A stretch of DNA of 64,000 nt from Schizochytrium sp. TIO01 (lineage: Eukaryota > Sar > Bigyra > Thraustochytrida > Thraustochytriidae), in the NCBI GenBank assembly GCA_004764695.1, contig SMSO01000031.1:6257261-6321260 (forward strand), given 5' to 3'. The translations under genes and the position numbers were made by a program. Under the pieces are notes generated by a model. It worked only from the letters and a program-made list of their open reading frames with translations. It did no database searches and was not told where the DNA came from. The number at the start of each line of letters is the position of its first letter. Within the stretch, counting starts at the first letter, position 1. This document shows, piece by piece, positions 3,640-54,606 of this stretch.

Positions 3640-3660
3640 CTTGTGTTGAGTCAACAACTA

Positions 3661-32420: not shown

Positions 32421-34259
32421 TCAATGTTCGCAGAGCTCTACAGCACGGATGTTCCAGTCCTGCTTATGCATCTTGCGCTCCTTCATGAGTTCTAGGCGGT
32501 GAGCCTTAGCCTCATCTAGACTTAACACAGATGACTGATCGGGCACCTCTTGGGTTGACACAATACGATGCTCAGGGTCCACGATAAAGAAGACAGCAAT
32601 GCGGCGACGTGCAGGCTTGTCAGAAGTGTTGGTCATCTTGCGGACTTTGTGGACGTGACTATTTGGGAACACAATTGTGCGTCCTTCAGGTGTGGCTACC
32701 ATACCCAGGGGAGCCAGGGCGTCCTCCATGATCTTGTCAAATGCAGGGTTCCGACACTGGGCAACGCCATAAAGCAAACGACCACGTTCCTCTGTCGTGA
32801 ATCCGCGCCGGTACATGAGCTCGCCGCCAACAATCCCTTCGCCGCGCTCAATCACATTCACGCAAGTACCAACAATACGCTCGTGCGACATTCCCTCAAC
32901 ATGCCAGACACCTTCATAAGATTCCCCAGGCTGAAGTTCGTAGTCCACAATCTTTGTGATCACTTGTAAAGATTTACCAGCGAGATTAATTTTCTCCAAT
33001 GGTCTGCCTTCATCGACCTCCCAATCCGTCTCTTCAGGTTCGTCGTCTTCGTCGTCTTCGCCCCCAGAGTTGGCTACTCGAACCCACTTTCCATAAGCAA
33101 TAATTGCCTCAATACGCGGGACCATGACACGGAATAGACGCGAAATAGTGTCGTACAGCTCGGGGTAGTCCGAGGCAGGGCGAAGGCCGTTAATGTCGTT
33201 TCGGATGCTCACACTTTTGTCTTTGGAAATGTCAAAATATGTTGGCATCCATTGATACTTGGATGCTTCAAAAGGCCGTCCCCATCGATCAGTCACAATC
33301 TTACCATCCCCATCCTTAAACTTTGGCGGGCTCTCAAGATCTGAAGATGGCGTGAAAGGGGATACATCACGAATGTACGAGTACAGTGCAGGGTGAACAT
33401 GATCAAGGACAACATCCTTGCTGTGAGGATGATAGTCTTTGGTACGCTTGCTTGCGAGTTCATCAACCTGCCTGTTAAGAGTCTTTACAAGCTCATCTGG
33501 GATAAGTTTATCAGCCCATGAAACACCTTCGCGAATATCCTGCGTCTGATACTTGGCCCAAATATCACCAAGAGGGAAGTTTGCCCTGCCCTTATAATTC
33601 CAGGATCCAACATCATTCAGATCAGCCTCGGCTAAAACACCAACCTTGAGAACTCCTTGTGTGACCTCCGAGTGAACAATTGCTTCGTCAAGTTTCCACA
33701 AAAGCTTCATCTTGGCTTCACACTCAAGAGGCTTGAGACCAGGAAGAGCAACAATATCTTTAGATTTTGCGCTCTTCATCTGATCCTTTGAGACCCCTGC
33801 AGCGAGACACTGCTCTTCAGTAAGAGGAATGAGCACAATGACACGTCCAGCACTGTCATCCACGCCAGTCTTAATAGCCTTTCCGGCATTCTCGAATGGC
33901 TGCCAAGGCGTCGAGGATGGCACAAACACCATCTCAGCGCCAGTACCAGGGAAGGTTTCAAGTTCCCAATATTCATCGCTATCCTCATCATCCGAAGGGT
34001 AATCTTGTTCGCTATGCACCATGATATCCTCGACGAAGCCTGGCTCATTAGTGTCAACAGTAATCGTCTCAGAACGAGCTGTGGCTTCTTGAGCAGCTTT
34101 TGAGACAGGCGCAAGACGCGCTTTGGCCTCAGACTCACGTAAGTACCCTGCAACAACCGGCAGTGCTACATCCACCGCAGCAGAGGAGCTCGAGGCCCCA
34201 GACTTTTTCTGAGAAGAAGAGCTATCCTCCATTTTCCGGCCCTTGCTTGCTTTTTCCAT
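32421..34259 (-). CDS. DUF4246-family putative 2-oxoglutarate/Fe(II) oxygenase, paralogue A
   Basis: 612 aa from ATG 34259 (or 603 aa from 34232); the frame runs up to an ATG at 34577, but that stretch has no counterpart in the paralogues. An F-box-like helix with APVSK lies near residues 30-50, then an acidic linker, then a DUF4246-type core: YQWMPTYFDISKDKSVSIR, INGLRPASDYPELYD, and LAGKSLQVITKIVDYELQPG. Unlike all its neighbours it keeps a complete candidate oxygenase site: WHVEG (His453, Glu455), a distal His537 in FPNSHVHKV, and Arg553, 16 residues on, for 2-oxoglutarate. The family's substrate is unknown. This is probably the enzymatically active, least derived member of the array. Confidence 0.85.
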   Translation of the reverse strand: MEKASKGRKMEDSSSSQKKSGASSSSAAVDVALPVVAGYLRESEAKARLAPVSKAAQEATARSETITVDTNEPGFVEDIMVHSEQDYPSDDEDSDEYWELETFPGTGAEMVFVPSSTPWQPFENAGKAIKTGVDDSAGRVIVLIPLTEEQCLAAGVSKDQMKSAKSKDIVALPGLKPLECEAKMKLLWKLDEAIVHSEVTQGVLKVGVLAEADLNDVGSWNYKGRANFPLGDIWAKYQTQDIREGVSWADKLIPDELVKTLNRQVDELASKRTKDYHPHSKDVVLDHVHPALYSYIRDVSPFTPSSDLESPPKFKDGDGKIVTDRWGRPFEASKYQWMPTYFDISKDKSVSIRNDINGLRPASDYPELYDTISRLFRVMVPRIEAIIAYGKWVRVANSGGEDDEDDEPEETDWEVDEGRPLEKINLAGKSLQVITKIVDYELQPGESYEGVWHVEGMSHERIVGTCVNVIERGEGIVGGELMYRRGFTTEERGRLLYGVAQCRNPAFDKIMEDALAPLGMVATPEGRTIVFPNSHVHKVRKMTNTSDKPARRRIAVFFIVDPEHRIVSTQEVPDQSSVLSLDEAKAHRLELMKERKMHKQDWNIRAVELCEH

Positions 34260-35497
34260 ACCCTGGTGAAATGCTCGAACGGTGTTCTTGAATTCCAGTT
34301 CTGCATGCTTTGCGCGCGTGAAGATTGCCGACCCTGATGCTCTGCGCAAGCGAAGAGGACCATAACGTGTCCTATATTCTAGTACCAAAGTGTGCTTCAC
34401 AAAGTTGCAGAATGAGGCAGTTTCAGATACGCTATTACTAATACTCGTGACCGCTTTAGAAAACGAAAGCATTTTACGTGGATCAACAGCTACTGCTCTC
34501 GCAGGGATTAATATGTGTGGTGGACAAGAATGTAGTGCAGACAAAGAGGTCAAAGTAGCGGTTTTGCAGACTGGCATGCAACGTCACTCGCTCGTGCTGG
34601 AAACTTTGCAGTGAGTGATTCCATTTTAGTCAAAGCTTACAATTAATGGCAGTGTCAGATGTGCCATTTTACTAAATGGATTCGCATCATCTTTTGACGA
34701 CAGGCAGCTTGGTAGAGTCCATGTGAGCATTCATAGTGCGCGAATGCTCTGAAGCGTGGGCAATATCATCATGAACCGATGCTGGATAATTTGCGAAGGT
34801 TTGCTTGCATTCCCACAAACCAGAGATAATAGTGTGTAACCTTTTTACCTCGGTATGACAAATCTGCTGCACCTCCCTTGGTGAGACCACTGCCATGATT
34901 TCAATTCTAGACGTTTCACCAGTGTACTAGTAGGATATGCAAGAGATCACCTTACAAGTGCAATAGTAAAAGCTGGATTGAAGGTGCTGTACCTAGTACT
35001 AACTTGAGGTCGCCTTGCGCAGACTCCAAAGTAGGTTTCTTTGATGCATTTATGATTATGGGCTTGATCCTAGTCGGGCTGAGGGCTGTTGCAATGTGTA
35101 ATTGATCGAGATCTTCCCAGAACCACACAAATGGTCCGCCACCGTTTAGTTGATTCCTGCGATGCTACTACTACCTACCAATTTCTGTGCGGTCTAAGCA
35201 TTTGACTAAAAAACTTTCATGGCGGATATTATGGTATTACGATAATGGTATGGCATAATCCACAGAAATTGTGTGACCACCATACCTGGTATTAAATTAG
35301 AAGGCACCTACGCTGTGTTAATTCAAGGATTCATTATAACATTCACTTTTTAAATAGTGAGGAATTAAGTAAGTGAACTCGTAGGAAGCCAAAGGTCTTC
35401 ATCATATAGGAAAAAAGTCACAGTGTATAGAACTTTTTCATAAACTGACTTTGAAAGGGAAACTATCATGGTACTACAATTAAATTCGAGGCAAGCT
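34260..35497. other. Spacer between paralogues A and B
   Basis: About 1.2 kb. It contains one small minus-strand frame (34687-34896) listed separately; the remainder is AT-rich with no recognisable feature. Confidence 0.5.
34687..34896 (-). CDS. Small hypothetical protein (69 aa)
   Basis: ATG-initiated with a favourable start (AATCATGGC) and a protein-like, probably helical product: EVQQICHTEVKRLHTIISGL, then WECKQTFANYP. It lies between paralogues A and B on the same strand. It has no similarity to them that I can see, and no family is recognised. The size is typical of small coiled-coil adaptor subunits, but that is a guess. Confidence 0.35.
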   Translation of the reverse strand: MAVVSPREVQQICHTEVKRLHTIISGLWECKQTFANYPASVHDDIAHASEHSRTMNAHMDSTKLPVVKR

Positions 35498-37366
35498 CTA
35501 AACAAAGCTATATATGCTCGCGTTAAGAGCCCAATCTTGATGATACATGCGACGCTCTTTGAAGCATTCTTGGCAATGCCTGTGAGTCTCTTCTTGTGAA
35601 AACATGCTAGCTTGATCAGGAACCTCCTGGGTTGATACAATTCGGTGTTCTGGATCGACAACAAAAAACGCCAGCATTCGTGATCTACAATGCCGATCAA
35701 GGGGGTTCCGCACGGTCGAAAGGTTGACGATATGGCTTGATGGATATATTATTACTCGGCCTGCAGCAGTGTTTGAGCAACCTAGTGGAAGAAGCTCGTT
35801 TCTTCTTGAATTGCGGAACGCTTCATCATAGTTTTGAAACTCTTGTTCTAGATAGTCACGTTCACACGGCAGGTAGTTCCTGCGCACCAAACTTTCTCCT
35901 CCTTCGAGCTCTTCATCGAGGTCGATACAAAGAACGCAAGTGGCAATGATATGTTCATGAAAGACCCCCCCGACGTGCCATATATTTCCATCAGCATATC
36001 CTGGGGGCATGTCATGTTCTAAGATCTTGACAACAACCTGAAGCGAAGTTCCAGCAAGATTAACTCGCTCCAGCAAGTTGGGATCTAGAGCGCGCTTGCT
36101 GAAGGGCTTTGGGTTTTGAAAACGTTTCTTGTATAATTTTTCGTACGATAAAACTGACTCCAAGCGCGGAATCATTCTCGTGAAAATCCGACCAAGAACT
36201 TCATAGATTTGTGGGTGAGCTGAGGCTGGCCTGAGATCATTGATATCGTTTCGAATTGTCACGAATTTGTGGCAATCAATGTCAAAATAGGTCGGGAGCC
36301 ACTGGTAGGTAGGCATAAGTATCGGGTTTCCATTTCGATCCTCAATGTTGGAATAGTCTGGCGGCTGTGATAGATCAGAAGATGGTACGAATGGGGATAT
36401 GCCGCGAATGTAAAGATTCATGGCAGGATTGATCAGACCACGCATTCGCCCATCGTGGCCAATAACCTTGAGATCCGGGTAATGACCAGGAGGGCGGGAC
36501 TTGTCTAAATCATCGAGCAAATTATTCAAGGTCTTTCGAAGTTCATCAGACACCAAATCGTCAGCCCAGCAGACCCCCTCCCTGATGGGCCCCATCTGAT
36601 ATTTTGCCCAAATTTCACCTAAGTCAAAGTGCCCTTTAGCTTTAAATTTCCATGAATTTACGTTCATCAAATCTGCTGGGCTTGTGACAGCCACAAAGAT
36701 ACAGTCATTCTGGAAGGGTAAGACTATATGCACGCTTCCGAGGTCCCAAGTAAGTTTCTCGAATCTACCATGCGCCTGAGCTTTCAAGTGTGGCATTGCA
36801 ACGGTCTGACGCCAGCGGGCAGCCTTCATGATCGATTTTTCCAGACCTGCGTCTTGACATTGTGCAGAATCCATCTTCACTAACACAACGACACGTGCAA
36901 ACTGCTCCGAAATGCCTATTTTTAGCACCTTCCCAGCATTTGCAAATGGTTTCCAGGGTTTACGATCCGGGAAGTTGCTTAGAATGCTTGAAATATCAAA
37001 ACTCCCAATACCTCTTTGTTGTTCGTAAAGCCGCTTGAATATTACAATGTCATCGTCATCGTCTATGCTATTTGCATTATTATTGTCTTCTTCGTCACAA
37101 TCGGCCTCCAATTTATCCTTCAGAGTCTTGGCGACCTTGCCCTTTTGGGTAAATTCGAGCAGAAATTCGCTGGACCCTACATCCACATTGACAAGCTGCG
37201 CTCTGGCTTCTGCTCTTCGCATGCTTTTAGAGACCGGAGCCAACAAAGCTTTGGCTTCGCCCTGTGTAAAGAAGGTCGCTACTAGTGACATAACCTCCAC
37301 CACAGCCTCCGCGGACCTCGCCGAAGGTGCCTCCGACCGCCTGCGTTTTGTGCTAGGCTCATCCAT
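35498..37366 (-). CDS. DUF4246-family protein, paralogue B (catalytic site degenerate)
   Basis: 622 aa from ATG 37366. The N-terminus carries a KRRR basic motif, then the F-box-like segment LVATFFTQGEAKALLAPVSK and an acidic linker with DDDDDIVIF. The shared block with NAGKVLKIGISEQFARVVVL and the DUF4246 core follow: YQWLPTYFDIDCHKFVTIR, LAGTSLQVVVKILEHDMPPG. The active-site region reads WHVGG, so the acidic ligand is Gly, and the distal motif reads YPSSHIVNL, with Val where paralogue A has the metal-binding His. The post-site Arg segment and VVDPEHRIVSTQEVPDQ are intact. It is therefore predicted to be a pseudo-oxygenase unless another residue set binds iron. B is divergent from C across a 1.25-kb gap. 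Confidence 0.83.
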   Translation of the reverse strand: MDEPSTKRRRSEAPSARSAEAVVEVMSLVATFFTQGEAKALLAPVSKSMRRAEARAQLVNVDVGSSEFLLEFTQKGKVAKTLKDKLEADCDEEDNNNANSIDDDDDIVIFKRLYEQQRGIGSFDISSILSNFPDRKPWKPFANAGKVLKIGISEQFARVVVLVKMDSAQCQDAGLEKSIMKAARWRQTVAMPHLKAQAHGRFEKLTWDLGSVHIVLPFQNDCIFVAVTSPADLMNVNSWKFKAKGHFDLGEIWAKYQMGPIREGVCWADDLVSDELRKTLNNLLDDLDKSRPPGHYPDLKVIGHDGRMRGLINPAMNLYIRGISPFVPSSDLSQPPDYSNIEDRNGNPILMPTYQWLPTYFDIDCHKFVTIRNDINDLRPASAHPQIYEVLGRIFTRMIPRLESVLSYEKLYKKRFQNPKPFSKRALDPNLLERVNLAGTSLQVVVKILEHDMPPGYADGNIWHVGGVFHEHIIATCVLCIDLDEELEGGESLVRRNYLPCERDYLEQEFQNYDEAFRNSRRNELLPLGCSNTAAGRVIIYPSSHIVNLSTVRNPLDRHCRSRMLAFFVVDPEHRIVSTQEVPDQASMFSQEETHRHCQECFKERRMYHQDWALNASIYSFV

Positions 37367-38620
37367 CGCTGCTGGGCAGTAACAGCCGGCACTGGCAACC
37401 TCAGCAGGGACTATATTCAAGACTCCCGCGATCAGCTATGGTGACCGAGCAACAAGTCAAGCAGTCTGCAGGCCTTAGAACAGCAAAGCTTGCTGAGTTA
37501 TGAAGTGCAACATAACAATCAATTGCCCCATTTTTTTGTTCTGTCAACTTTTGTCAATTTTTGTCCGTCCAAAGAGTTCTTTTCGTCATTTGTTTTCATT
37601 TAATTACTAGTAAAAAAAAGAAAAGAAAAAAAGAAAGGAATGTGCTTTGTGTCCAAATGTATAAATGGGCGACCACGAAATTCTTCAGATAGGCTTCAGC
37701 TTATTCTGGTGTATGTTTGTGATGTTGCTGATGCTTTGCGCTTAGCTTTTGTGTCTTGATATTGTACTTTTCTATTCTTGTTGCTGATGATGATTACATT
37801 CTTCTTTCCGTCCATTCTTGATATGTCTGTGATTGTTCCTGTGAAAGAATACTACAAAAAACACTTCGCTGGTTATTTTTGTTTTACAGATTAAAAAACA
37901 AACTTTATCCTTGTTGAGTCGAAGGCGTTGACCGCAAATCTCTATCTGAAGGCTGCTTCGTGCACAGAACCTTTGCGCTGGCGGTGAGGGGGCGCAAGAA
38001 CCTGGTAGGGCCTCGTCGGACACAGGTTTATGTTTAAAGAAGTCTCCTCACGACAAACTTTGCATATGTATATTCAGATCTTCGGGCGAGGGAGAATCTG
38101 AGGCACGTTCTCTAGAATACGGGAGCGTCTGTAGCGCGAGCTTTGCACTTGAGGACTGGAAATCGGAGCTGCTAGAGCTGGTGTTCCAGGTGTGAGGATA
38201 CTGCGTGGAACCTAAGAAGCCTATAGATCGGTTGGATCTAAGACTGCGAGATCTTGGCGTGCACTTAGGCTTGTGCAGAACTTTTGGGGAGCAAATCTGC
38301 ATAGATACCGGCCTTGGAATTCAAGAAGAGCGTTCCTTGCCCAGCAGACGAGAGGAATTGCTTCGTCTGGCTTTTAGAATCGTGTTGAGGTGTCGAACTG
38401 GCATGAAAGTCGTTGTGACCAGTCACTAGATGAGCTTGCAAGTTTCCAACAACTGAATAAATAGAACCTGTAAAGTGCCAAGATAGAGGTACTAGAACAA
38501 TTGTTCTTCTGGAGATAAAATATTTGTGATCTTTTCGTCAGCAAACCTTGAAAAATACTGTTGCGGGCTTCAAGTAATTATTTTGCTGACGAAATCACTT
38601 TATCGTATCAAAGACACCCA
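37367..38620. promoter_or_regulatory. Shared upstream region of divergent paralogues B and C
   Basis: This 1.25-kb spacer is the only head-to-head interval in the array and must hold promoters for both genes. An 84-codon Ser-rich frame on the minus strand (38048-38302) has an ATG but no recognisable domain, and it is probably chance. I see no clear motif shared with the other upstream regions. Confidence 0.35.
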
Positions 38621-40435
38621 ATGAAAAATTCACAGCGTCCAGCTAAACGGGCCCGGCGAACACACGATGCAGCCATTTCACGCGAGATGGCAATAGACAT
38701 TATTATGCCAAGTGTTGCAAGTTTTTTCACTCAAGCTGAAGTGCGATCGTTATTGGTCCCGGTTTCCAAGTCCGTGCAAAGAGCAGCGGCGCGAGCCCCA
38801 GTTATTACTGTCAATACTGGGTCGCAGCGGTTTCTCTATGAAATCACCAAATCCGAACTGACCTCAAGGGTACGCCACCGCACGAATGATCGTACAAGCC
38901 TAGATGTTGACGAGGATGATGATAGTGACGAAGAAGGGTTTAACATCGCAAGAATTCTTGCTCCGTTTCCGAACAATGTGACATGGTCACCTTTTGAAAA
39001 TGCTGGCCCAGTTCTAAAAATGGGTGTCTACGATCAATACTCGCGTCTTGTTGTTCTGGTAGCACTCACTGAAGAGCAAATTCTTCGTGCAGGGCTAGGA
39101 CTCGAAGAAGCCCAGACTGCCAAACGTAGAGAAAATGTAAACCTGTCACGACTTAGCCCCAGGGCAGATGGAGAAAAATTTGAGGAGCTCACTTGGGATC
39201 TTGACAAAGTCACCGTTATTGCGCCATTTGAAAATGGCGTGCTCAAGGTCGCAGTAATGAGTCCTGCCGACTTGAACGGGGTAGGATCATGGACCTTCAA
39301 ATCGCGAGGACTTTTTGAGCTTGGTGACGTTTGGGCAAAGCATCAGCTGCAGAATGTCTCAGAAGGCGTCTCATGGACGGATTGCACAGCAACGCAAGAG
39401 CTTTTTGCTGAAATAAATGAAGCTGTTGAAAATTATGGACGTGAGCACTCTCCTCTTGTCCCTCCAGGAGCAAACAAGGTTGTTCATATCTATGTGACAC
39501 CCACTTTACTTCCTTTTATTAGAGGTGTTTCTAAATTTGTTCCTTCTGCTGACTTAGCTGATCCTCCCGTATTCGGAGGTCGTACGAGTCAGCTTGACGA
39601 TGATGACATGAGCATTCCACTCGAGATGCCAAAGTACCAATGGCTTCCTGCATACTTTGATCTCGATGCCAATAAGAATGCTACCATTCGTACGGATATC
39701 TCTGGTTTACGCCCGGCTTCTGCCTTTCCTGAATTGTATGATTGTTTCGCGCGCCTATTCAGTCTCGCAGTACCAAGAATTGAAGGGGTTTTGGCTTACA
39801 ATCGGTGGTTTCGAAGACGGTTACAGGCAAGGAAAGAAACGAACATTATGCCTGAGCTAGAGCGAATTGACTTATCAGGGACATCATTACAAGTGATGAT
39901 AGTACTAGCAGATTACGTTCTCCAGCCAGGAGAGTCCTTCAATTCGAAATGGTTCTTGCGTGGGATGTTTCATGAGCATATTGAAGTCACATGTTTGTAT
40001 ATCCTAAGTCGGGACGAAGAGATTGAAGGGGCCGATATTCTCTTTCGACGATGGTTTTTTCAAGAGGAAAGAGATTACTTGAGAGAACAATTTTCCGATT
40101 GCGACCCCGCATTTCGCCAAACCTGGACTACAGCTTTTAAGCCTCTTGGTTCGATAGCTACTCCAGCACATCGTAGTATTGTAGTTCCAGCAACGCATTT
40201 GATTAATCTTCATGAAATGAAAAACACATCAAATAAAACTGCTCGCTGTCGCACACTTGTGTTTTTTGTCGTCGATCCAGAAAAACGCATCGTCTCAACT
40301 CAAGAGGTTCCCGACCAGAAGGACTTATTCACATCAGATGAAGTCCTTCACCATGCCACCGAAATGATGAGGGAGCGGCATAGATCGCAACAAGATTTGG
40401 CAGTCTATTTAGATTACATTAGCGGAATAATTTGA
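38621..40435 (+). CDS. DUF4246-family protein, paralogue C (catalytic site lost)
   Basis: 604 aa from ATG 38621, the first ATG in a frame that is open further upstream. Order of parts: KRARR basic motif at the N-terminus; F-box-like segment ASFFTQAEVRSLLVPVSK; acidic linker (DEDDDSDEEG); FNIARILAPFP and NAGPVLKMGVYDQYSRLVVL; DUF4246 core with YQWLPAYFDLDANKNATIR and LSGTSLQVMIVLADYVLQPG. In the active-site region the tryptophan is followed by Phe instead of His (KWFLRGMFHE) and the distal motif is VPATHLINL, so neither the first nor the distal His ligand is present. Iron-dependent chemistry is not expected. The C-terminal VVDPEKRIVSTQEVPDQ is conserved, as is the helical tail. Confidence 0.83.
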   Translation: MKNSQRPAKRARRTHDAAISREMAIDIIMPSVASFFTQAEVRSLLVPVSKSVQRAAARAPVITVNTGSQRFLYEITKSELTSRVRHRTNDRTSLDVDEDDDSDEEGFNIARILAPFPNNVTWSPFENAGPVLKMGVYDQYSRLVVLVALTEEQILRAGLGLEEAQTAKRRENVNLSRLSPRADGEKFEELTWDLDKVTVIAPFENGVLKVAVMSPADLNGVGSWTFKSRGLFELGDVWAKHQLQNVSEGVSWTDCTATQELFAEINEAVENYGREHSPLVPPGANKVVHIYVTPTLLPFIRGVSKFVPSADLADPPVFGGRTSQLDDDDMSIPLEMPKYQWLPAYFDLDANKNATIRTDISGLRPASAFPELYDCFARLFSLAVPRIEGVLAYNRWFRRRLQARKETNIMPELERIDLSGTSLQVMIVLADYVLQPGESFNSKWFLRGMFHEHIEVTCLYILSRDEEIEGADILFRRWFFQEERDYLREQFSDCDPAFRQTWTTAFKPLGSIATPAHRSIVVPATHLINLHEMKNTSNKTARCRTLVFFVVDPEKRIVSTQEVPDQKDLFTSDEVLHHATEMMRERHRSQQDLAVYLDYISGII

Positions 40436-41410
40436 TTCTTTTATCTGAAGTGCATACTCAACTATCTCTTTCGCCATACTCGCACCTACCTAATGATTAC
40501 CATCCATTACAAATAAATTAATAATTTTAATTTTAATTGTTAAATAAATAACTTTTTTTTAATAAAATTATCATAATAAGTCAACCCAGCCTACCAATCG
40601 AATATTTTTATTTATTTAAAAAAAATCGTTTAAAAGGAAGAAACGAAAACGAAAAATGAAAGAAACAAAGGTAAAGTAAAATTAAATCATAGGTACAGTG
40701 CATGATTTACAGCTTCATGAGCTCAAGTAGTTTACAAAAAACTTGGGTTCCCTAGGCACCAGTGCTCGATCGTATCAGGAAGTGCTTGAAAGCTTTCATT
40801 ACCTTGAAGTCCGTCTTGACAAATCACAATCTTTATTGCAGTAAATCAGAGACTATTATTTCCTCGTATATTGATCATGAGATCTTCGGCAGAACGAGGC
40901 AGGTCAAACATTGATTCTTCTCCAAGACTCAGGGAGAATTAAAAATCGTAATCCTGCATTACTCATTAAAACTTCAATACACGCTACTTAAGTCTTTTCC
41001 TGGTTCACTGATTCCAGTTTACGACTGATTTTCATCCTAGTATAGGAATTGAAGGGAATCGATAGCCTTGGAGACCATGTCTTGATAAAATTTGGGCTAC
41101 AACAAGAAACTCATCCTGAGGAGAGGGATCAGTCGAGTGCTCAAACAAACTACGCTCGCGGACGTGCGTAGACATGATGGGAAGTGGTGTGTCATAAGCC
41201 CATGTGCATTCTCAAATTAAAGCGCTTTTGTGCCGTACATTAACTTTAGCATTTTCCTTCTTCAAGTTACTTTTTCTTTTCTAAAGCAAAGTAGATATCA
41301 CAATTGGGCCAGTTCGCCGTGCACTAGGAAATTCGAGACCAAACAAGCTAGCTAGCTTGCTACGGTCTTCACGGGTTAGGTGTACTGGAGAGCCCAAAGT
41401 AGCTGCAGCC
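40436..41410. other. Spacer between paralogues C and D
   Basis: About 1 kb, very AT-rich between 40500 and 40700. No coding frame is supported. The last 30-40 bases before the D start are nearly the same as those before E. Confidence 0.5.
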
Positions 41411-43270
41411 ATGAACCATGCTTCCAAGCGCGCGAGGTCGGAGTCAAGTCTAACTAAGCCAGACGAAGCATCTGCGGTCATGGAGTTCGTCCTGCCCTTG
41501 GTGGCCACTTTTTTCACACAAAGCGAAGCCAGGGCTCTCCTCGCACCACTATCCAAAGGCGCCAGAAGAGCTGTTGCAAGAGCACAGATTGTAACCATGG
41601 AGACCCATACACGTGGCTTTCTTGAGGATGTTCTCTCAATGATTACACCTAAGAGCGTTCCAACTGATGAGAAGACCAACAACACAGAAATCAATACTAA
41701 TGATGATGAGGATATTTTGGGCCTTGAGTCCGATGAGGATAACAGTCGCGGCTTTGATATCTCCAGCATCCTTCACCGCATGCCTGCGGGTCATATCTGG
41801 AGACCATTCTCAAATGCAGGGCAAGTTTTACGAATGGGTATTTCCGAGCAGTATGATCGAGTTGTGATCCTTCTTGCGATGTCACAGAACGAATGCGCAG
41901 CAGCAGGACTTGACGTAGAGAAGCTGCACTCACTCAAGCGCAGAGATATTGTGGCGTTACCGGGCCTTCAGAGTCAATCTCACGGTGATATAGAGGAACT
42001 AGAGTGGGAGCTGAATTCGGTCCATGTCGTGAAGCGATGCCAAGATGGCAGCTTGTTGGTTGCCCTATTAAGTCCTGCAGATTTGGGGAATGTGGGATCT
42101 TGGAAAATCAAAGCAAGAGGGCATTTTGCTCTTGGCAAGCTGTGGGCGAAACATCAAACAAAGAACATCATTGAAGGTGTTACATACGGCGATGATCTGA
42201 TGCCACAGGATCTTCTTGCAGATGTAAACCAAGAAATCGACAATTTAAAGACTGGCAATATGCTTGTTGGAATCGACTACTATGGAGACCACATGTCTGT
42301 TTATGTCGCACCAGACCATCCTCCCTTTGTTCGTGGGGTAACGCCATTCGTTCCATCAAAAGATCTCGCGAGTGTTCCTGAGCTGCTTGATGAAGATGGA
42401 AATCCAATAGAAGATCGAAATGGAATGCCCATCGTCATGCCGACGTACCAATGGCTCCCCGCGTACTTTGACATTGATGAACATAAGAATGTGTCAATTC
42501 GTACCGATATCAATGGACTACGGCCTGGATCAAATTACCCCAAGCTTTATGATGGCATCGCACGGTTGTTTAAGATTGCCATTCCTCGTCTTGAGGCTGT
42601 GATGGCTTACTCAAATCAATTTCGGAATTGCTTAAGAAGTGCAGAAAATCGAGGTATTGGTGGTGCTTCACGTGGTCCTGTAAATTTTCAACTGGGGTGT
42701 ATCAACCTCGCAGGACAGTCTCTTCAAGTTATGACGAAAATTGTGGACTATGTCCTCGAGCCAGGTGAATCGTATGGAACTGAGTGGCACGTCGGTTGTA
42801 TGTGTCATGAGCGAGCTATAGCTGCATGCTTCTTTATTTTAGATCGTGACGAAGGTATTGATGGCGGCGATGTTCTTTTCCGACGTTGGTTCCTGGAAAC
42901 TGAGCGACAAATGCTCATGCAACATTTCAAAGATAGTGACTCGCAGCTCCGAGACATGTGGAAGTGCGCCTTTTGCCCTCTAGGCAAAGTTGCAACTCCA
43001 GATGGCCGGGTTTTCGTTCTTCCAATGAGTCACCCGCTTAATGTACAGCCCATGATAAACACGACGAATCGCACGTTGCGTTGTCGTACTATGGCACTAT
43101 TTGTAGTTGATCCTGCACACCGTATTGTATCAACCCAAGAGGTCCCTGATCAATCATTGACTATGAGCGAAGAGGAGTGTCAAGAGCACGCAAGGAAACT
43201 TTATAATGAACGTCGTATGTATCAGCGAGACTTGGCTGTCTATCAAGATTACCTAAGTGGATTTATTTGA
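41411..43270 (+). CDS. DUF4246-family protein, paralogue D (near-twin of E)
   Basis: 619 aa from ATG 41411. The N-terminus has an SKRARSE basic motif, then the F-box-like segment VATFFTQSEARALLAPLSK, an acidic linker and FDISSILHRMP. The central block has NAGQVLRMGISEQYDRVVIL and SWKIKARGHFALGKLWAKHQ. The core has YQWLPAYFDIDEHKNVSIR and LAGQSLQVMTKIVDYVLEPG. The site reads WHVGC (His460 kept, Glu to Gly) and LPMSHPLNV (distal His to Leu). It is the same length as E and nearly identical outside a few variable patches, mainly residues 279-305 and 391-435. Predicted non-catalytic; the variable patches may be interaction surfaces. Confidence 0.84.
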   Translation: MNHASKRARSESSLTKPDEASAVMEFVLPLVATFFTQSEARALLAPLSKGARRAVARAQIVTMETHTRGFLEDVLSMITPKSVPTDEKTNNTEINTNDDEDILGLESDEDNSRGFDISSILHRMPAGHIWRPFSNAGQVLRMGISEQYDRVVILLAMSQNECAAAGLDVEKLHSLKRRDIVALPGLQSQSHGDIEELEWELNSVHVVKRCQDGSLLVALLSPADLGNVGSWKIKARGHFALGKLWAKHQTKNIIEGVTYGDDLMPQDLLADVNQEIDNLKTGNMLVGIDYYGDHMSVYVAPDHPPFVRGVTPFVPSKDLASVPELLDEDGNPIEDRNGMPIVMPTYQWLPAYFDIDEHKNVSIRTDINGLRPGSNYPKLYDGIARLFKIAIPRLEAVMAYSNQFRNCLRSAENRGIGGASRGPVNFQLGCINLAGQSLQVMTKIVDYVLEPGESYGTEWHVGCMCHERAIAACFFILDRDEGIDGGDVLFRRWFLETERQMLMQHFKDSDSQLRDMWKCAFCPLGKVATPDGRVFVLPMSHPLNVQPMINTTNRTLRCRTMALFVVDPAHRIVSTQEVPDQSLTMSEEECQEHARKLYNERRMYQRDLAVYQDYLSGFI

Positions 43271-44792
43271 GTGAGAATGTGGATGATCTTCAATTTGATT
43301 AGCTTTGAATCTGTTACCGTTTTCTAATGGAAGAGATGAATGAGGGCGGTTTTCAGTAGTTTGCTAATTTGTTCATCCGTTTTAATCAAAGGCGAATGAA
43401 TATAACGAGGAGACCGCGACACATGAAACACCTTCTCTTCTAAGTTTCCAGTCCCATGCATGTTTAAGGAGATGAAGATACTTTTGTACCAAAGCCCTTA
43501 TTTCAAGCGATTTGACAAGCATTAGCAGGTGGCATAATGTAACCAAACACATTACGCTTACTGTGACCTTGCACAAGGATGATTTGAAGCAAGGAGACCA
43601 AAACGCAGCTAGAATCGAGCGTCCGCTTCTTGATGTTTTTTCTAGAACATCGATTCCAAAGTCTTACACTGGTTCCTCGAGAAATCTTTCTGTGCATCCT
43701 TCACCTATTGTTACTCTCGTAAATTCTCTCCAGAATTGCCGATCTTGATCGGCGAAACCATTTGATTCTTTCATTATTAATTTTACACCAGCACCTTTAA
43801 TATTTATCATCTACGCACCTATAGAGTATTTTATGAAAAAAACAAAAACAAAACCAAAACACTTCTATTTATTTTTAAAAATGAATTAAAAAAATTACAT
43901 GTTGATTTTTGTTTCTGTCATTGTATATGTGATAAACTAAATTAGTCCCCTGCATTCTGATATAATAAATCAATAACTTTGTGCAGAGGTTCATGGCACA
44001 CATGATTCCCCCAAAAACGAAGCTTCCTCGGCGTCTGTGGTCGCTTAGGGATCGTGTGGAAACTTTCGTCATGATCTTGTAATTAAAGTCCGTGTTCGTT
44101 TTATTATTATTATTTTATTTTTTTATTTTTATTTTTTTGTTTAAAAGTAATACATAAACAAATAATTGTCATTACTGATATTATTGTGATGATTAAAAAT
44201 TTAATTACCACTGGCAGTCATTCTTTTTCTATTATAACTGTTCAATGACTGATTTATTGTGACTAAAAAAGAGTGTTGTTACAATGCGTCACCCATCAGA
44301 TACTGGATACCTTGAAGACTACAGACTACGTAGTATATAGATTGGACATGAGTTGGGAGCGCGAGTCCTTTTAAAACTTCCAGCAGAACGAGGAAGACTT
44401 CGCGGATCAAATGCGGAACCTTGGAACCAAGGGGTTAAAAAATCTCGGGAGCCTGATCCGCTTAGCGAGCTTGAGGTTTCAAGGAAAGTTACTCGCGACG
44501 TCCATTCATGAAAGAGTTTAAGATGTCGTTTGGATATGGCCATCAGTGGTGAAAGGGACTCAGCAAGATAGCAATCTTCAGTTGAACATGGGGTTCTGTA
44601 TGGAACTCATAGCTATAGACAGCATTGCTATTAATCCTGTGCACCTTTAGTGAATTAAGGTTTTTGAGTCATCTTTTCGCATACTACCCAAGACCATTTT
44701 CAACAACGTGAGACCTTGTCTGCCGAGTCGCGAGTCGCCTGTTGATGCATACGCGGGTCAGGTGTACTGGAGATCTCAAAGCAGCTGCAGCC
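43271..44792. other. Spacer between paralogues D and E
   Basis: 1.5 kb of AT-rich DNA, with a T/A-rich low-complexity tract at 44100-44140. The 3' flank just after D shows only faint similarity to the flank after E (AGTAGTTTGCT blocks). The near-identity of D and E is therefore confined to the coding regions. Confidence 0.55.
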
Positions 44793-46652
44793 ATGAACCA
44801 TGCTTCCAAGCGCGCGAGGTCGGAGTCAAGTCTAACTAAGCCAGACGAAGCATCTGCGGTCATGGAGTTCGTCCTGCCCCTGGTGGCCACCTTTTTCACA
44901 CAAAGCGAAGCCAGGGCTCTCCTCGCACCACTATCCAAAGGCGCCAGAAGAGCTGTTGCAAGAGCACAGATTGTAACCATGGAGACCCATACACGTGGCT
45001 TTCTTGAGGATGTTCTCTCAATGATTACACCTAAGAGCATTCCAACTGATGAGAAGACCAACAACACAGAAATCAATACTAATGATGATGAGGATATTTT
45101 GGGCCTTGAATCCGATGAGGATAACAGTCGCGGCTTTGATATCTCCAGCATCCTTCACCGCATGCCTGCGGGTCATATCTGGAGACCATTCTCAAATGCA
45201 GGGCAAGTTTTACGAATGGGTATTTCCGAGCAGTATGATCGAGTTGTGATCCTTCTTGCGATGTCACAGAACGAATGCGCAGCAGCAGGACTTGACGTAG
45301 AGAAGCTGGACTCACTCAAGCGCAGAGATATCGTGGCGTTACCGGGCCTTCAGAGTCAATCTCACGGTGATATAGAGGAACTAGAGTGGGAGCTGAATTC
45401 GGTCCATGTCGTGAAGCGATGCCAAGATGGCAGCTTGTTGGTTGCCCTATTAAGTCCTGCAGATTTGGGGAATGTGGGATCTTGGAAAATCAAAGCAAGA
45501 GGGCATTTTGCTCTTGGCAAGCTGTGGGCGAAACATCAAACAAAGAACATCATTGAAGGTGTTACATACGGCGATGATCTGATGCCACAGGATCTTCTTG
45601 CAGATGTAAACCAAGAAATCGACAACCTGAGGACCGGCAACAGACCTATTCGTATTGATCGCTATGGAGCCAATGTGTCTGTTTATATCGCACCGCACCT
45701 ACCTCCCTTTGTTCGTGGGGTAACGCCATTCGTTCCATCAAAAGATCTCGCGAGTGTTCCTGAGCTGCTTGATGAAGATGGAAATCCAATAGAAGATCGA
45801 AATGGAATGCCCATCGTCATGCCGACGTACCAATGGCTCCCCGCGTACTTTGACATTGATGAACATAAGAATGTGTCAATTCGTACTGACATTACTGGGC
45901 TGCGGCCTGCATCAAATTACCCCAAGCTTTATGATGGCATCGCACGGTTGTTTAAGATTGCCATTCCTCGTCTCGAAGCTGTGATGGCTTACTCAAATCA
46001 TTTCAGGAACTGCCTAGGGGCAGCAGAGAATCGAGGTATTGGTGGTGCTTCCATCAGTCCTGTAACCTCTCAACTAGACCGCATCAACCTCGCAGGACAG
46101 TCTCTTCAAGTTATGACGAAAATTGTGGACTACACGTTAGAGCCGGGTGAATTTTATGGAACGGAGTGGCACGTCGGTTGTATGTTCCATGAGCGAACAG
46201 TTGCTACATGCTTCTTTATTTTGGATCGTGACGAAGGTATTGATGGCGGCGATGTTCTTTTCCGACGTTGGTTCCTGGAAACTGAGCGACAAATGCTCAT
46301 GCAACATTTCAAAGATAGTGACTCGCAGCTCCGAGACATGTGGAAGTGCGCCTTTTGCCCTCTGGGCAAAGTTGCAACTTCAGATGGCCGAGTTTTCGTT
46401 CTTCCGACGAGTCACCCTCTCAATGTGCGGCCCATGGTAAACACGACGAATCGCACGTTGCGTTGTCGTACTATGGCACTATTTGTAGTTGATCCTGCAC
46501 ACCGTATCGTATCAACCCAAGAGGTCCCTGATGAATCATTGACTATGAGCGAAGAGGAATGTCAAGAGCACGCAAGGAAACTTCATAATGAACGTCGTAT
46601 GTATCAGCGAGACTTGGCTGTCTATCAAGATTACCTAAGTGGATTTATTTGA
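44793..46652 (+). CDS. DUF4246-family protein, paralogue E (near-twin of D)
   Basis: 619 aa from ATG 44793, chosen because it aligns with the D start; an in-frame ATG at 44745 would add 16 residues that D cannot have. The architecture is as in D. The first 270 codons differ from D at only a handful of bases (for instance Val to Ile, His to Asp). A dense patch of changes follows at 45628-45707, where D has GNMLVGIDYYGDHMS and E has GNRPIRIDRYGANVS. The site reads WHVGC and LPTSHPLNV, so the acidic and distal ligands are missing as in D. The C-terminus has VVDPAHRIVSTQEVPDE. Predicted pseudo-oxygenase, recently copied from or converted by D. Confidence 0.84.
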   Translation: MNHASKRARSESSLTKPDEASAVMEFVLPLVATFFTQSEARALLAPLSKGARRAVARAQIVTMETHTRGFLEDVLSMITPKSIPTDEKTNNTEINTNDDEDILGLESDEDNSRGFDISSILHRMPAGHIWRPFSNAGQVLRMGISEQYDRVVILLAMSQNECAAAGLDVEKLDSLKRRDIVALPGLQSQSHGDIEELEWELNSVHVVKRCQDGSLLVALLSPADLGNVGSWKIKARGHFALGKLWAKHQTKNIIEGVTYGDDLMPQDLLADVNQEIDNLRTGNRPIRIDRYGANVSVYIAPHLPPFVRGVTPFVPSKDLASVPELLDEDGNPIEDRNGMPIVMPTYQWLPAYFDIDEHKNVSIRTDITGLRPASNYPKLYDGIARLFKIAIPRLEAVMAYSNHFRNCLGAAENRGIGGASISPVTSQLDRINLAGQSLQVMTKIVDYTLEPGEFYGTEWHVGCMFHERTVATCFFILDRDEGIDGGDVLFRRWFLETERQMLMQHFKDSDSQLRDMWKCAFCPLGKVATSDGRVFVLPTSHPLNVRPMVNTTNRTLRCRTMALFVVDPAHRIVSTQEVPDESLTMSEEECQEHARKLHNERRMYQRDLAVYQDYLSGFI

Positions 46653-48350
46653 GTGATCGTCAGTTTAATTGTCTTAAAGTCCGTCCAAGCCCTGCATAGA
46701 AAGAGATGAGCAGAGTCTTAGTAGTTTGCTGGTTTGTAAAAAATATTTCCGTTTTTTGTATCATTTTTAATTGCTTGTCTACCTTGTCTTTTGGGGCATC
46801 GTTTCTAGTTCATATTCTGAGCTTCAACGCAGTGTTCCCACGGTTGTCTCTGTCTTGGGCAGATGTTGTGACAAACTAAGGAATAAGGCAATCAATCTCC
46901 TTGCTTTAGAGAATTTGCTCGCAAGAGTGTTCCTGGAACGAAGCCTTCAAGTCCTGTCTTTTCGACGTGCCCAACGCCACTGCTTCGACCCCTAATTTCA
47001 CAATCCCGACTGAGCCCTCCGCAACCAGTGCAGGTTCCACCGCACCTGCCTTCTATCAATCCACATGAACCCAAGGAACCCAAAACGCTCCTGCTCTCGT
47101 TCCAGGGCACTCGCGATAACCCCTCAAATGCATGCTGACTTTCCATCTCCGTGCATGCACATCTCACTACTTCGAAGAATCGTTAAGCACCAAAGCCAAA
47201 GCCGGCTCCCGGGATCCTGCAAAACATTGGGGACCCTCCCACGAGCGGCATCATCCTGAAGGTATTCGTCCACCGCCTTGTACAGCGGCGTATCTTGGTT
47301 TCTTGTAACCAGAGAACGTGCCTTAAGTTCGTGGCCAAGGCGGTCAGGGATGCCACAGCTTTTCCACTGCTACCACCCGCGCAGGCCAAAACCAAAATAA
47401 AGTCAACCTCCCCGCTGCCCGTGCTGTCTCCGCTGCAAATCTGCTTTCATTCGAGGCGCCGTGCGTCGCAGAGGATTCCACGCTGCGCAAGTCCATTCCG
47501 AGCGGTTCTGGAGACCAATGTGCCAAGTTCTTTCCTTTTACAGGTGAGCGTGGCCAAACCATAATTGAGCGAGAACTCAGCTCTCTCAACACAGCCGTGC
47601 ATCCGTCCAAGTGCAGTCTCAGTCTCCGCTCAAACTGTCCTGCTCAGGGCTGCAGATTCAGGGTTTCTCAGCTGCTGTTGCCTCGCTTGCGAAACCATTT
47701 CACAGTCTAAGATCAAATCACATCAGATTTGATCAGTTCTTTCATTTGCATTGAAGAGTCGAAAACCGAACAGGTAATACGGAATTTGCAAAGCCAAGAC
47801 CGAGATAACTAACTGACTTTCAGGCAACCAAAAGCTGTGCGTAGCGCTATTGAGGCAAAGGAAGAGACCTTGAAAGCGTCGCGCATTGCTATCTCGATCG
47901 AATCAGCTTTGGCCACCAGATAGATGCACACGTGACATACGTGCTGTACAATCTCGGTTAAAATTATATCTCTGAGAGAAGTTTTGTTATTTGAGTGAGA
48001 ACAAAAAGTTCTCAACGAAAGCTGAAACCAAGGTCGGCGAATCATTGTGCACATCAATAATTTGACTCGGCAAGCGAATCGCGTGGGCACTGAGCGTTTG
48101 CCCAGCAGCGCCGCTGCTTGAATGTACTGCCCTTGACTGTTTGGCTATGCTTGAGCTCTTTCAACGAAGTTTTGTTTGACTTTGGACGCCAAAAAGACTA
48201 AAAAGAGAAGAACGAAGCATTTATTTATAAATTGAAAAAAAAAAAAAAAACAGGAAAGAAAAAAAAAAAAAAAAAAAAAAAAAGCGCAAGAGAATGGACA
48301 TCTTTCTGATGCTACTCTTCAGACCCAGAACTACTTCACGCGGGACCACC
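46653..48350. other. Spacer between paralogues E and F with coding-like fragments and an A-tract
   Basis: 1.7 kb. On the minus strand at about 47110-47610 several protein-like but mutually out-of-frame fragments occur, for example LRHVLWLQETKI in one frame and TPLYKAVDEYLQDDAARGRV in another. An interrupted A-tract of about 50 bases (48234-48283) precedes paralogue F. None can be turned into a gene; a decayed retroelement or gene is possible. Confidence 0.4.
48234..48283. repeat. Interrupted poly(A) tract
   Basis: Two A runs (about 17 and 25 bases) separated by CAGGAAAG, 70-120 bases upstream of the preferred start of paralogue F. Its origin is unknown. Confidence 0.9.
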
Positions 48351-50456
48351 ATGGAGGATGCCCTCGTTGGTGATCGCCATGCTACGGGAATAGACACACG
48401 CAACCCTAAGCGTCCCCGATCCCAGGCGAGCTCGGCGTCAGGTACTGTGGAGAGGGCCATGAGCACTGTCATGCCGCTAGTCGCCAGCTTCTTCTCACAG
48501 GCGGAGGCGCGCGAGCTCTTATCTCCTGTATCAAGAGGCGTGCGTCGTGCAGTTTCGCGAGCGCAGGTTGTGACTCCTGACGTCGGAGCTTGGGACTTTT
48601 TGCACGAAATGGCCTCCCAGGGAGCCAGGAGCTGCGAGATCAAAAGAACCTATCATGAGGCTCGCAAGAACGCCAAACAGAACTTCAATAACAGTAGCAG
48701 CAGCAGCAGCAGCAGTAGCAGTAGCAGCAGCAGTAGCAGTAGCAGCAGCAGCAACCATGTTAGCACGCCAAAGGAAGTTCCTTTTTCCTCCAATTCAAGT
48801 TCAAGTGCTGCTGAAAGCCTTAATGACCAAAGCGGAACAAATGATCAAAAAGTTTTGGACCATGCTGCTGATCTGAAGCACAATAAGATGGAGAATAACG
48901 AAGACGATGAAGACGATGAAGACGACTACGATGACGACGATGACGGATTCAATATTGCAAGCATTCTCTCACCGTTTCCACCAAGCACTGTGTGGATGCC
49001 TTTCAAGAATGCTGGGAAGGTGAAAAAGATGGCAATATATGCACAGCTTGGGCGCTTGGTGGTGCTAGTAAACCTTACCAAAGATCAATGTCTGGAAGCT
49101 GGCCTTGATGAGAAAACCCTTCAAACTGTAAAACCTAGGGATGTGATTCATTTACCAAACCTTAAGTCGCAGCGGTACGAAGGTTTCGAGGAACTTGCGT
49201 GGGATCTTGATCAAGTTCGAGTGGTTAAATCTTTCCAAAATCACAAACTAGTGATCGCAGTTATGAGCCCGGCAGACCTGGGAGGTATAAACTCATGGAA
49301 GTTCAAGGCTCGTGGCCAATTTGAGCTGGGGAATATCTGGCACAAGCATCAAACAAAGAATGCCAGGGAGGGTGCCACATGGGCAGACGACATTGCACCT
49401 CCAGAAGTTTGCGATGCTTTGAATGATGCGCTTAACAAAAACGCTCCACCAAACCCTGTAAGAAAACATAAAGTCTTCCCAGACTTTTTGCGTGAGCATA
49501 TGTCCCACGGTGCATATCCATTCATCAGGGATGTCTCTCCATTTGTACCCTCAAAGGACCTCGCCCAACCTCCAGACTTCACTGACGCGGAAGGCAACAT
49601 TAAGGAAGACCGGTTCGGACGACCAATCGTATTGCCTAAGTATCAACTTCTTCCGACTTATTTTGATATTGATAAATCACGCGGGGTGACGATTCGAAAC
49701 GACATTGATGGTTTGCGCCCAGCCTCGCGCTTCCCAGAGCTTTATGATTCTATCGCACGTCTTTTTCGGGTAATGCTACCCCGAATTGAGGCAACTCTCT
49801 CGTATGTACGTTGGTTTCAGGCAGCAACTAAAAATGATTCTGATTTTGATCCTGCAACGGGCGCAAATATCCCCCTTGAACGAATTGATCTTACAGGGCG
49901 TTCTCTTCAAGTCATTACCAAGATAGTGGATTATGAGCTGCAACCTGGGCAGTTCTATGACACTCAGTGGAGCGTCAAGGCTATGTTTCACGAGAGAGTT
50001 GCTGTTCGTTGCTTCTTTGTACTGGACCGAGACGAAGCTTTGACAGGCGCAAATGTTCTTTTTCGCCGCTGGTACTTGCCCAAAGAAATGGACTTCTTAG
50101 CTCAACACTTTGGGTTTATGCAGGGTAAGGGCTCGTTGGGTTTGATCAACAGCAAATTTATCCCGTTGGGACGTGTATCGACTCCGGCTGGCCGGGCCAT
50201 TGTGTTCCCTGCTACGCACATGATGACCGTGGATCGTCTTAAAAATACCTCTGACAAGGTCGCCAGATGTCGAATGGTGGCGTTTTTCATTGTAGATCCA
50301 GACCATCGCATTGTATCTACGCAGGAGGTACCAGATCAAAGCTCGATGCTATCCGAGGAAGACACTATGGAACATCTTAATGCTCTTTTTAAAGAACGTA
50401 AGATGTACCAAGAGGACCCGGGGATCTTCTTGGACTACCTTAGTGGTGTTATTTAA
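48351..50456 (+). CDS. DUF4246-family protein, paralogue F (catalytic site lost, poly-Ser/Asp insert)
   Basis: 701 aa from ATG 48351 (context ACCACCATGG); an upstream in-frame ATG at 48294 adds 19 residues. An NPKRPRS basic motif and the F-box-like segment VASFFSQAEARELLSPVSR are followed by an 85-residue low-complexity insert. The insert holds a long poly-Ser run coded by AGC/AGT repeats (about 48691-48752) and then a poly-Asp/Glu run (about 48897-48945). The rest matches the family: NAGKVKKMAIYAQLGRLVVL, YQLLPTYFDIDKSRGVTIR, LTGRSLQVITKIVDYELQPG. The site reads WSVKA, with Ser for the first His, and FPATHMMTV, with Met for the distal His. It should not bind iron in the usual way. The insert makes it the longest member. 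Confidence 0.83.
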   Translation: MEDALVGDRHATGIDTRNPKRPRSQASSASGTVERAMSTVMPLVASFFSQAEARELLSPVSRGVRRAVSRAQVVTPDVGAWDFLHEMASQGARSCEIKRTYHEARKNAKQNFNNSSSSSSSSSSSSSSSSSSSSNHVSTPKEVPFSSNSSSSAAESLNDQSGTNDQKVLDHAADLKHNKMENNEDDEDDEDDYDDDDDGFNIASILSPFPPSTVWMPFKNAGKVKKMAIYAQLGRLVVLVNLTKDQCLEAGLDEKTLQTVKPRDVIHLPNLKSQRYEGFEELAWDLDQVRVVKSFQNHKLVIAVMSPADLGGINSWKFKARGQFELGNIWHKHQTKNAREGATWADDIAPPEVCDALNDALNKNAPPNPVRKHKVFPDFLREHMSHGAYPFIRDVSPFVPSKDLAQPPDFTDAEGNIKEDRFGRPIVLPKYQLLPTYFDIDKSRGVTIRNDIDGLRPASRFPELYDSIARLFRVMLPRIEATLSYVRWFQAATKNDSDFDPATGANIPLERIDLTGRSLQVITKIVDYELQPGQFYDTQWSVKAMFHERVAVRCFFVLDRDEALTGANVLFRRWYLPKEMDFLAQHFGFMQGKGSLGLINSKFIPLGRVSTPAGRAIVFPATHMMTVDRLKNTSDKVARCRMVAFFIVDPDHRIVSTQEVPDQSSMLSEEDTMEHLNALFKERKMYQEDPGIFLDYLSGVI
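48691..48752. repeat. Coding (AGC/AGT)n trinucleotide tract (poly-Ser)
   Basis: About twenty serine codons, AGC and AGT interspersed, within paralogue F. The mix of codons shows the tract is not a fresh perfect expansion. Confidence 0.9.
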
Positions 50457-52698: not shown

Positions 52699-54606
52699 AT
52701 GGAGGACGCACAGAGGCCTTTGAAGAGAGCCCGGGGCGATGCGGGCATAGATGCGGAAATGAGGGAAGAACCATGGAGTATATCGTCTGGCCCAGGACTA
52801 CCCACATCGGTTCTTGATGCTATAATGCCTATGGTGGCGGCGTTCTTTTCACAAGCAGAAGCTCGAGCGCTGTTATCACCTGTATCGAAGGGCATGCGAA
52901 GAGCTGCCGCTCGAGCGACAACAGTGACCGTAGAGATGACGACGCAATATATACGAGATGTTGTAGATGTTGCGAAAAGAAGCAACTTTCTCCCTCGTCT
53001 GGCGGCTCCTCATGAGGAAGGCAGTAATATCAAAGATGGCGGCGCTGCACCTGGTGATGATGATGAAGAAGGCGTTGTTTTTATGCCAGCAGCAGTAAGG
53101 TCCAGCAAAGATAATGATTTTATTGCAAGTCTTCAGCATGCTGTATCTCCATTTCCAAGAGGTGAAATCTGGAGACCGTTTGTACATTCAAGCAAGGTGC
53201 TAGAGATGGGCTTGTGCCAATGTGCTTTAAAGGTCATCGTCTTTGTTACACTAAACACACAGCAACTCGAGATCGCCTCATCCGGCAATGTCTCCATGCG
53301 CAATCTAAATGTTGGTGATTCGATCGCATTGCCGATGTTAAGACCCCAGGCTTTCCGCGATTTTGAGCAGTTAGATTGGGAGCTGCAAGATATTCGAGTT
53401 ATCCGAGTATCGCAAGAGCATGATTGCATCAAAGTCGCATTGAAAACTCCAGCGGACCTCGCTGAAACCGGCTCCTGGCGATTCAAAGCGCTGGGGTATT
53501 TTGATCTTGGCAAGGTTTTTGCCAAGCACCAGAATAAACCACCTTGCGATGGTCTTGTTTGGGCTGATGATGTAGTCCCCACTGATCTCATCGAACGTTT
53601 TAATAAACTTGTTGATGACTATGCTTTAGATCATCACCCGGAACCCCGACCTTTTACAGACAATGTAGCTGTCGATTATATTCATCCAGGTTTACCAATT
53701 TATGTCACTGGCGTTTCTCCATTTGTGCCATCAAAAGATCTTCCTAACGCACCTGTATATCCAGCCAACGGAGCATTTTCACCAAAATACCAAATGCTTA
53801 CCACTTACTTTGACATCAGTATGAATAAACAAGTTAGCATTCGTAACGATCTTGCTGGTTTGCGCCCGGCTGAAAAATACCCCGAAATGTACGAATGCAT
53901 TGCCCGAATTTTTCAAATGATGATTCCTCGTTTGGAGGCAGTTCTCAGCTCACACTATTGGTGGCGTAACTTTTATTGTGCTGACCGCTTCCTCGATGAG
54001 CAAGGCAAGCTTCTGGAGCATCGTTTGGAGCGTATTGATCTTGCCGGGCAGTCTTTACAGGTGATTGTTAACACTATGGAGTATATCTTACAGCCAGGTC
54101 AATCATTCAGTGTAGGAAACTGGCATGTAGGGGGTCTGGTATTCGAACGTATTGTTTTAAATTCCGTATATATGCTGGAGCGGGACGAAGGCATTGAGGG
54201 TGGTGACCTTCTGTTTCGTAGATTTATCATGCCCACTGAATCTAAATTCCTTCATGAGAAGTTCAAAGATGCATCACAAGATTTCCAGAACTTGTGGACT
54301 AAACCTTTAGTTCCCATTGGCCGCATGCAGACACCTGCGCATCGTTCTGTCGTGTTCCCTACAGGTCATTTGATGACTCCAACAACAATTAAAAACACGT
54401 CCAACAAAGTTGCGCGCTGTCGACTGCTAATTTATTTAGTTGCAGATCCGGATTCTACGGCCCTTTCCACACAAGAAGTTCCTGATCTCTCTCCCACATT
54501 TACGGTAGAAGAGTCTCGTGAAAATTTGCTAAATTTCTGGAAAGAGCGTCATGTCAACCAGCATGATTTAGCGAATTATTTAGACTACCTGACCAGGCTT
54601 ATGTAA
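52699..54606 (+). CDS. DUF4246-family protein, paralogue G (most divergent copy)
   Basis: 635 aa from ATG 52699. The N-terminus has LKRARGD, then the F-box-like segment VAAFFSQAEARALLSPVSK. An acidic linker (GDDDEEGVV) and the family block IWRPFVHSSKVLEMGLCQ follow, then SWRFKALGYFDLGKVFAKHQ and the core YQMLTTYFDISMNKQVSIR with LAGQSLQVIVNTMEYILQPG. The site reads WHVGG, then LVFER, so this copy alone lacks the His of the HE pair kept by the others. The distal motif is FPTGHLMTP (Met for His). The C-terminal signature is altered to VADPDSTALSTQEVPDL. Predicted non-catalytic. It ends the array. Confidence 0.83.
   Translation: MEDAQRPLKRARGDAGIDAEMREEPWSISSGPGLPTSVLDAIMPMVAAFFSQAEARALLSPVSKGMRRAAARATTVTVEMTTQYIRDVVDVAKRSNFLPRLAAPHEEGSNIKDGGAAPGDDDEEGVVFMPAAVRSSKDNDFIASLQHAVSPFPRGEIWRPFVHSSKVLEMGLCQCALKVIVFVTLNTQQLEIASSGNVSMRNLNVGDSIALPMLRPQAFRDFEQLDWELQDIRVIRVSQEHDCIKVALKTPADLAETGSWRFKALGYFDLGKVFAKHQNKPPCDGLVWADDVVPTDLIERFNKLVDDYALDHHPEPRPFTDNVAVDYIHPGLPIYVTGVSPFVPSKDLPNAPVYPANGAFSPKYQMLTTYFDISMNKQVSIRNDLAGLRPAEKYPEMYECIARIFQMMIPRLEAVLSSHYWWRNFYCADRFLDEQGKLLEHRLERIDLAGQSLQVIVNTMEYILQPGQSFSVGNWHVGGLVFERIVLNSVYMLERDEGIEGGDLLFRRFIMPTESKFLHEKFKDASQDFQNLWTKPLVPIGRMQTPAHRSVVFPTGHLMTPTTIKNTSNKVARCRLLIYLVADPDSTALSTQEVPDLSPTFTVEESRENLLNFWKERHVNQHDLANYLDYLTRLM

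Follow-up and report, generated by a model that had tools for sequence, protein, structure and literature searches.

The window analysed here, a 64,000-nucleotide stretch of the genome of Schizochytrium sp. TIO01, contains seven long genes, A to G, which had been predicted from the sequence to be members of the DUF4246 family sharing one architecture. All seven open reading frames were found at the predicted coordinates (Table 1) with no internal stops, A and B lying on the minus strand and C to G on the plus strand. In a search with the Pfam profile PF14033 each of the seven passed the curated cut-off of 26.7 bits, with E-values between 8e-24 (G) and 1e-51 (A), confirming their membership of the family. 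The copies align end to end, in agreement with a single architecture, and the sequence blocks quoted as shared between them are present with variation from copy to copy, although KARGHF is found in full in D and E only. Amino acid identity is 34-47% for most pairs of copies and 94% for D and E, and 94 columns are invariant from A to G. The N-terminal linker of copy F carries a run of approximately 20 serines. Upstream in-frame ATGs leave room for longer versions of A (to 34577), E (from 44745) and F (from 48294); judged by homology across the N-terminal segment, the true starts are more likely at or near those listed. Residues of A are numbered here from the ATG at 34577 (718 amino acids).

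Table 1. Features of the DUF4246 gene array, in window coordinates.
Feature	Position	Strand	Evidence and remarks
Copy A, intact DUF4246 Fe(II)/2OG-type oxygenase (predicted)	32421..34259	-	PF14033 176.8 bits, E=1e-51; ORF open to 34577; shortest branch
A, C-terminal CEH tail (protein ends LCEH)	32424..32432	-	same in 78/78 readable bacterial homologues
A, R658, 2OG-binding arginine position	32604..32606	-	alignment with conserved bacterial residues
A, H643, distal iron-ligand histidine	32649..32651	-	gapless profile alignment FPNILQHRV / FPNSHVHKV
A, HVE (H559, E561), HxE of iron triad	32895..32903	-	alignment with bacterial homologues
Copy B, degenerate: HVG, V547, S562, no CEH	35498..37366	-	PF14033 110.8 bits, E=1.1e-31
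Copy C, degenerate: FLR, I528, C543, no CEH	38621..40435	+	PF14033 105.3 bits, E=5.3e-30
D repeat unit	41372..43274	+	94.7% identity with 44754-46656; extent nearly that of the coding region, patchy divergence
Copy D, degenerate: HVG, L543, C558, no CEH	41411..43270	+	PF14033 100.4 bits, E=1.6e-28
E repeat unit	44754..46656	+	partner of 41372-43274
Copy E, degenerate near-identical duplicate of D: HVG, L543, C558, no CEH	44793..46652	+	PF14033 101.9 bits, E=5.7e-29
Copy F, degenerate: SVK, M625, C640, no CEH; poly-Ser insert	48351..50456	+	PF14033 97.2 bits, E=1.5e-27
Copy G, degenerate: HVG, M559, C574, no CEH	52699..54606	+	PF14033 85.0 bits, E=8e-24

Just upstream of the array an open reading frame at 27299-29668 (plus strand) matches the class II, B12-dependent type of ribonucleotide reductase, with E-values of 4.6e-39 for RNR_Alpha and 1.8e-15 for the RNR-II insertion domain; this class is less common in eukaryotes. 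Two overlapping open reading frames (321 and 381 amino acids) at 29885-31893 on the minus strand, between the reductase and A, gave no significant Pfam match. Ordinary-looking flanking genes encode a CD36 family member (850-3657), Serinc (21119-22609), coatomer epsilon (55472-56383) and a group 7 glycosyltransferase (61223-62212), and an omega-3 PUFA-synthase-type gene pair, as would fit a thraustochytrid, is present in the same genome. Across the 64-Mb genome as a whole eight copies are detectable, A to G and an additional copy, H, on another contig (C24). An N-terminal part of approximately 210 residues is common to all eight and is not seen in the bacterial proteins described below, and when the N-terminal 88 residues of D were used as a query, matches came from these eight genes only.

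The family had been characterised as one of scattered fungal genes. It is not fungal alone, as a Streptomyces DUF4246 query identified 223 prokaryotic loci encoding relatives, nearly all of those listed being actinobacterial; in contrast, none was found when prokaryote genomes were scanned with patterns derived from the eight copies. No relatives were found in the viral contigs searched. The best 80 of the 223 loci are 83-92% identical to a Streptomyces plasmid copy. Among these 80, 78 were readable and every one of the 78 carries WHxEG and a terminal CEH, with the distal histidine and the arginine also read in 77. When 296 genomes from the phylum were sampled, five had the gene, which lies on both chromosomes and plasmids, and the neighbourhoods of the best 80 of the 223 loci revealed no shared neighbour (at most 4/80). 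The actinobacterial gene is perhaps a mobile single gene.

A structure was predicted for A, and B to G were placed on its fold by alignment. An earlier model built from the eight Schizochytrium sequences alone was of poor quality, with a mean pLDDT of 52.5. The one used in its place covers residues 125-718 and had 29 bacterial relatives in its alignment; its mean pLDDT is 70.8, and much of the core exceeds 90. The best structural matches to this model are Fe(II)/2OG oxygenases, namely BelL (8jms; Z 14.0, rmsd 3.2 over 191 aligned residues), HrmJ (Z 13.9), and SnoN and PHD2 (both with Z about 11); WelO5 was also among the fold matches. A search of PDB sequences gave no credible match to these proteins. 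The model of A contains a double-stranded beta-helix core, as the original prediction had anticipated, and supports the assignment of the DUF4246 core to the Fe(II)/2OG oxygenase fold.

Comparison with the approximately 80 actinobacterial genes showed that A alone among the seven keeps the iron triad (H559, E561 and H643) together with R658 and the CEH tail. The distal ligand was assigned to H643, and the 2OG arginine to R658, because a profile of 29 bacterial sequences aligns to A without gaps in this region, over FPNILQHRV/FPNSHVHKV. A MAFFT alignment pointed instead to H641 as the distal ligand, but this was an artefact of a two-residue gap; the gapless profile pairs H643, and the FPNxxxH spacing agrees. 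H641 itself (32655-32657 in A) precedes the distal ligand position by two residues; all eight copies have this histidine, and the bacterial proteins do not have one there. With an HxD/E...H triad and a 2OG arginine in place, A looks from its sequence like a working iron-dependent oxygenase. In B to G the HVE motif is replaced by HVG, FLR or SVK, the distal histidine by V, I, L or M and the arginine by Cys or Ser, and CEH is gone, the C-termini being SFV, GII, GFI, GVI or RLM. The aligned residues indicate that these six lack the combination of HxD/E...H triad and 2OG arginine that marks active Fe(II)/2OG oxygenases. Thus, where seven equivalent genes had been implied, six of the seven are without the residues that define the active site. 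H has QVA at the HxE motif, Y at the distal position and R at the arginine position, and also lacks CEH.

There are 87 positions common to A and the bacterial proteins, of which each of B to G retains 57-63%. Thirteen of the 87, including E561, R658, C716 and E717, are lost in all six; H643 was added by hand to the jointly lost positions owing to the alignment gap. Independent losses predict only 0.31 such positions, but since the independence model ignores shared ancestry the excess mainly shows losses inherited on the B-G stem. In a protein tree rooted on the bacterial sequences, with the root on a long bacterial branch, A diverges first on a short branch, followed by H, with B to G as one clade (support of 94% for H plus B-G and 100% for B-G). 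Branch lengths from the common node are about 1.6-2.1 substitutions per site for B to G versus 0.42 for A. A is also closest to the bacterial proteins by identity (35%, with the remaining copies at 25-30%), and this holds whatever the root. The order of branching suggests that losses were probably stepwise, with the carboxylate and the distal histidine going before the split of H from B-G and the arginine on the B-G stem.

Omega across the eight copies was 0.066-0.081, from a codon model near saturation, as synonymous sites are saturated for every pair but D/E. Between D and E there are 96 base differences and yet only 37 amino acid changes, against 70 +/- 4 in neutral simulations, 97% of which acquired a stop; dN/dS for this pair is 0.24-0.30. 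Purifying selection is thereby shown for D and E, and is indicated for the rest of B-G. The D/E repeat extends no more than about 40 bases beyond the coding region, and its synonymous divergence is 0.02 in the first 254 codons and 0.35-0.43 in two inner segments. This uneven divergence suggests gene conversion between the two genes.

The N-terminal part includes a helical segment that is weakly F-box-like in all eight copies. Aligned in register with a profile of the genome's own F-boxes the segment scored 16.8, higher than all 600 column-shuffles (maximum 14.8) and higher than windows elsewhere in the family, and the hhalign probability was 6%. A Pfam F-box search of the copies gave no match up to E=10. 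The model of A has three predicted helices here, in a region where pLDDT is low (about 35-45). The F-box resemblance may be taken as a lead only. A KRxR motif lies near the N-terminus of B to G and of H but not of A, and acidic runs are present in the copies; both features would be compatible with nuclear proteins.

On balance we think it probable that the array comprises one ancestral-type DUF4246 oxygenase, A, and a tandem clade of six conserved pseudo-oxygenases, B to G, that act by binding. The six would keep the family architecture of N-terminal helical segment, extra beta domain and oxygenase-type core but, having lost the 2OG arginine and CEH along with the iron triad, should be unable to carry out the usual iron/2OG reaction. 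From what is established about Fe(II)/2OG enzymes, those without ligands for iron or 2OG would not be expected to catalyse it. Prolyl 4-hydroxylase does not become a halogenase when Ala or Gly takes the place of its Asp ligand, and hydroxylation by the Ala variant cannot be restored (PMC2767507). As selection appears to maintain B to G, a non-catalytic role, most likely binding, would follow, in which the emptied core may hold a partner or ligand. The N-terminal helical segment and the basic KRxR would then place the proteins, probably in the nucleus, as regulators or adaptors; this location and partner binding are suggested by a short sequence motif and a weak match between profiles. There is precedent in JARID2, a JmjC protein that is catalytically inactive and yet essential as a regulator (PMC11241480). 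The fullest version of this proposal, in which lineage-specific nuclear pseudo-oxygenases combine an F-box-like segment with an iron-less DUF4246 binding core in tandem beside a still active parent, seems to us unlikely.

The faster evolution of B to G relative to A and their loss of catalytic residues might be expected of functionless duplicates at various stages of pseudogenisation. This is highly improbable given that six uninterrupted frames of 604-701 codons persist despite saturating synonymous divergence, that omega is about 0.07, that the differences between D and E show an excess of synonymous changes and that so many columns are invariant from A to G. A chemistry of another kind would require either a halogenase-like HxG site or a remodelled metal site built from H559, H641 and the Cys at position 658. 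B, D, E and G keep H559 within an HVG that resembles the HxG/A motif of Fe/2OG halogenases, every one of the eight copies has H641, which the bacterial proteins lack, and Cys occupies the old arginine position in five of the six (C to G). However, C and F also lack H559, so that no three-ligand set is common to all six, and the 2OG arginine is lost throughout B to G. Known Fe/2OG halogenases keep both histidines (PMC2767507), and the HxG halogenase version is ruled out because the distal histidine is replaced by V, I, L or M in all of B to G. In some of the copies the conserved H641 may belong to a metal site of another kind, but for the six together we give an alternative chemistry a low probability.

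Two further possibilities retain a role for an inactive core. B to G could form mixed oligomers with A as inactive subunits that tune its activity or choice of substrate. The single architecture of all copies and the position of the six adjoining A are consistent with such an arrangement, but A is without the KRxR of B to G, and may therefore differ in location, and H is unlinked to the array; we regard this arrangement as doubtful. Alternatively, and as a special case of the conserved pseudo-oxygenases favoured here, B to G may be substrate receptors of a ubiquitin ligase, with an F-box segment and a dead core that recognises a target or small molecule. The in-register profile alignment, scoring above every shuffle, and the three predicted helices agree with this proposal; the hhalign probability, the absence of a Pfam F-box match and the low pLDDT of the segment count against it, leaving it rather improbable.

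DUF4246 and PF14033 are not named in the literature that was searched, in which no characterised function for DUF4246 and nothing relevant on thraustochytrid 2OG families or on 2OG pseudoenzymes was found. Our best reading of the array, from alignment and phylogeny, is of a pseudoenzyme expansion within a family of uncharacterised chemistry, with one enzyme and six conserved dead copies and not seven enzymes. It offers a natural comparison between an intact form of a protein and six dead ones, pointing to residues important in DUF4246 chemistry, among them the unexpected C-terminal CEH tail, and a system in which to ask how a metal-dependent enzyme turns non-catalytic. It is also a warning that a Pfam match alone would mislabel six non-oxygenases as oxygenases.

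The Streptomyces-type DUF4246 proteins resemble A in having the same core (35% identity), HxE...H, a 2OG-type arginine and a terminal CEH. They differ from all eight copies in being without the N-terminal part, and from B-G and H in that the bacterial active site is intact. BelL, HrmJ and PHD2 share the predicted fold of A and its iron and 2OG ligands, but at only 12-17% identity, and the ligands are missing from B-G. WelO5/SyrB2-type Fe/2OG halogenases are like B, D, E and G in that HxG replaces HxE, but the loss of the distal histidine and the 2OG arginine leaves B-G short of a halogenase site. JARID2, a KDM5 relative, is similar to B-G in its oxygenase fold, its conserved loss of catalytic residues and its non-catalytic role, the last of these being what is proposed for B-G; it belongs to another family and branch of the superfamily, whereas here there are six tandem paralogues in one genome.
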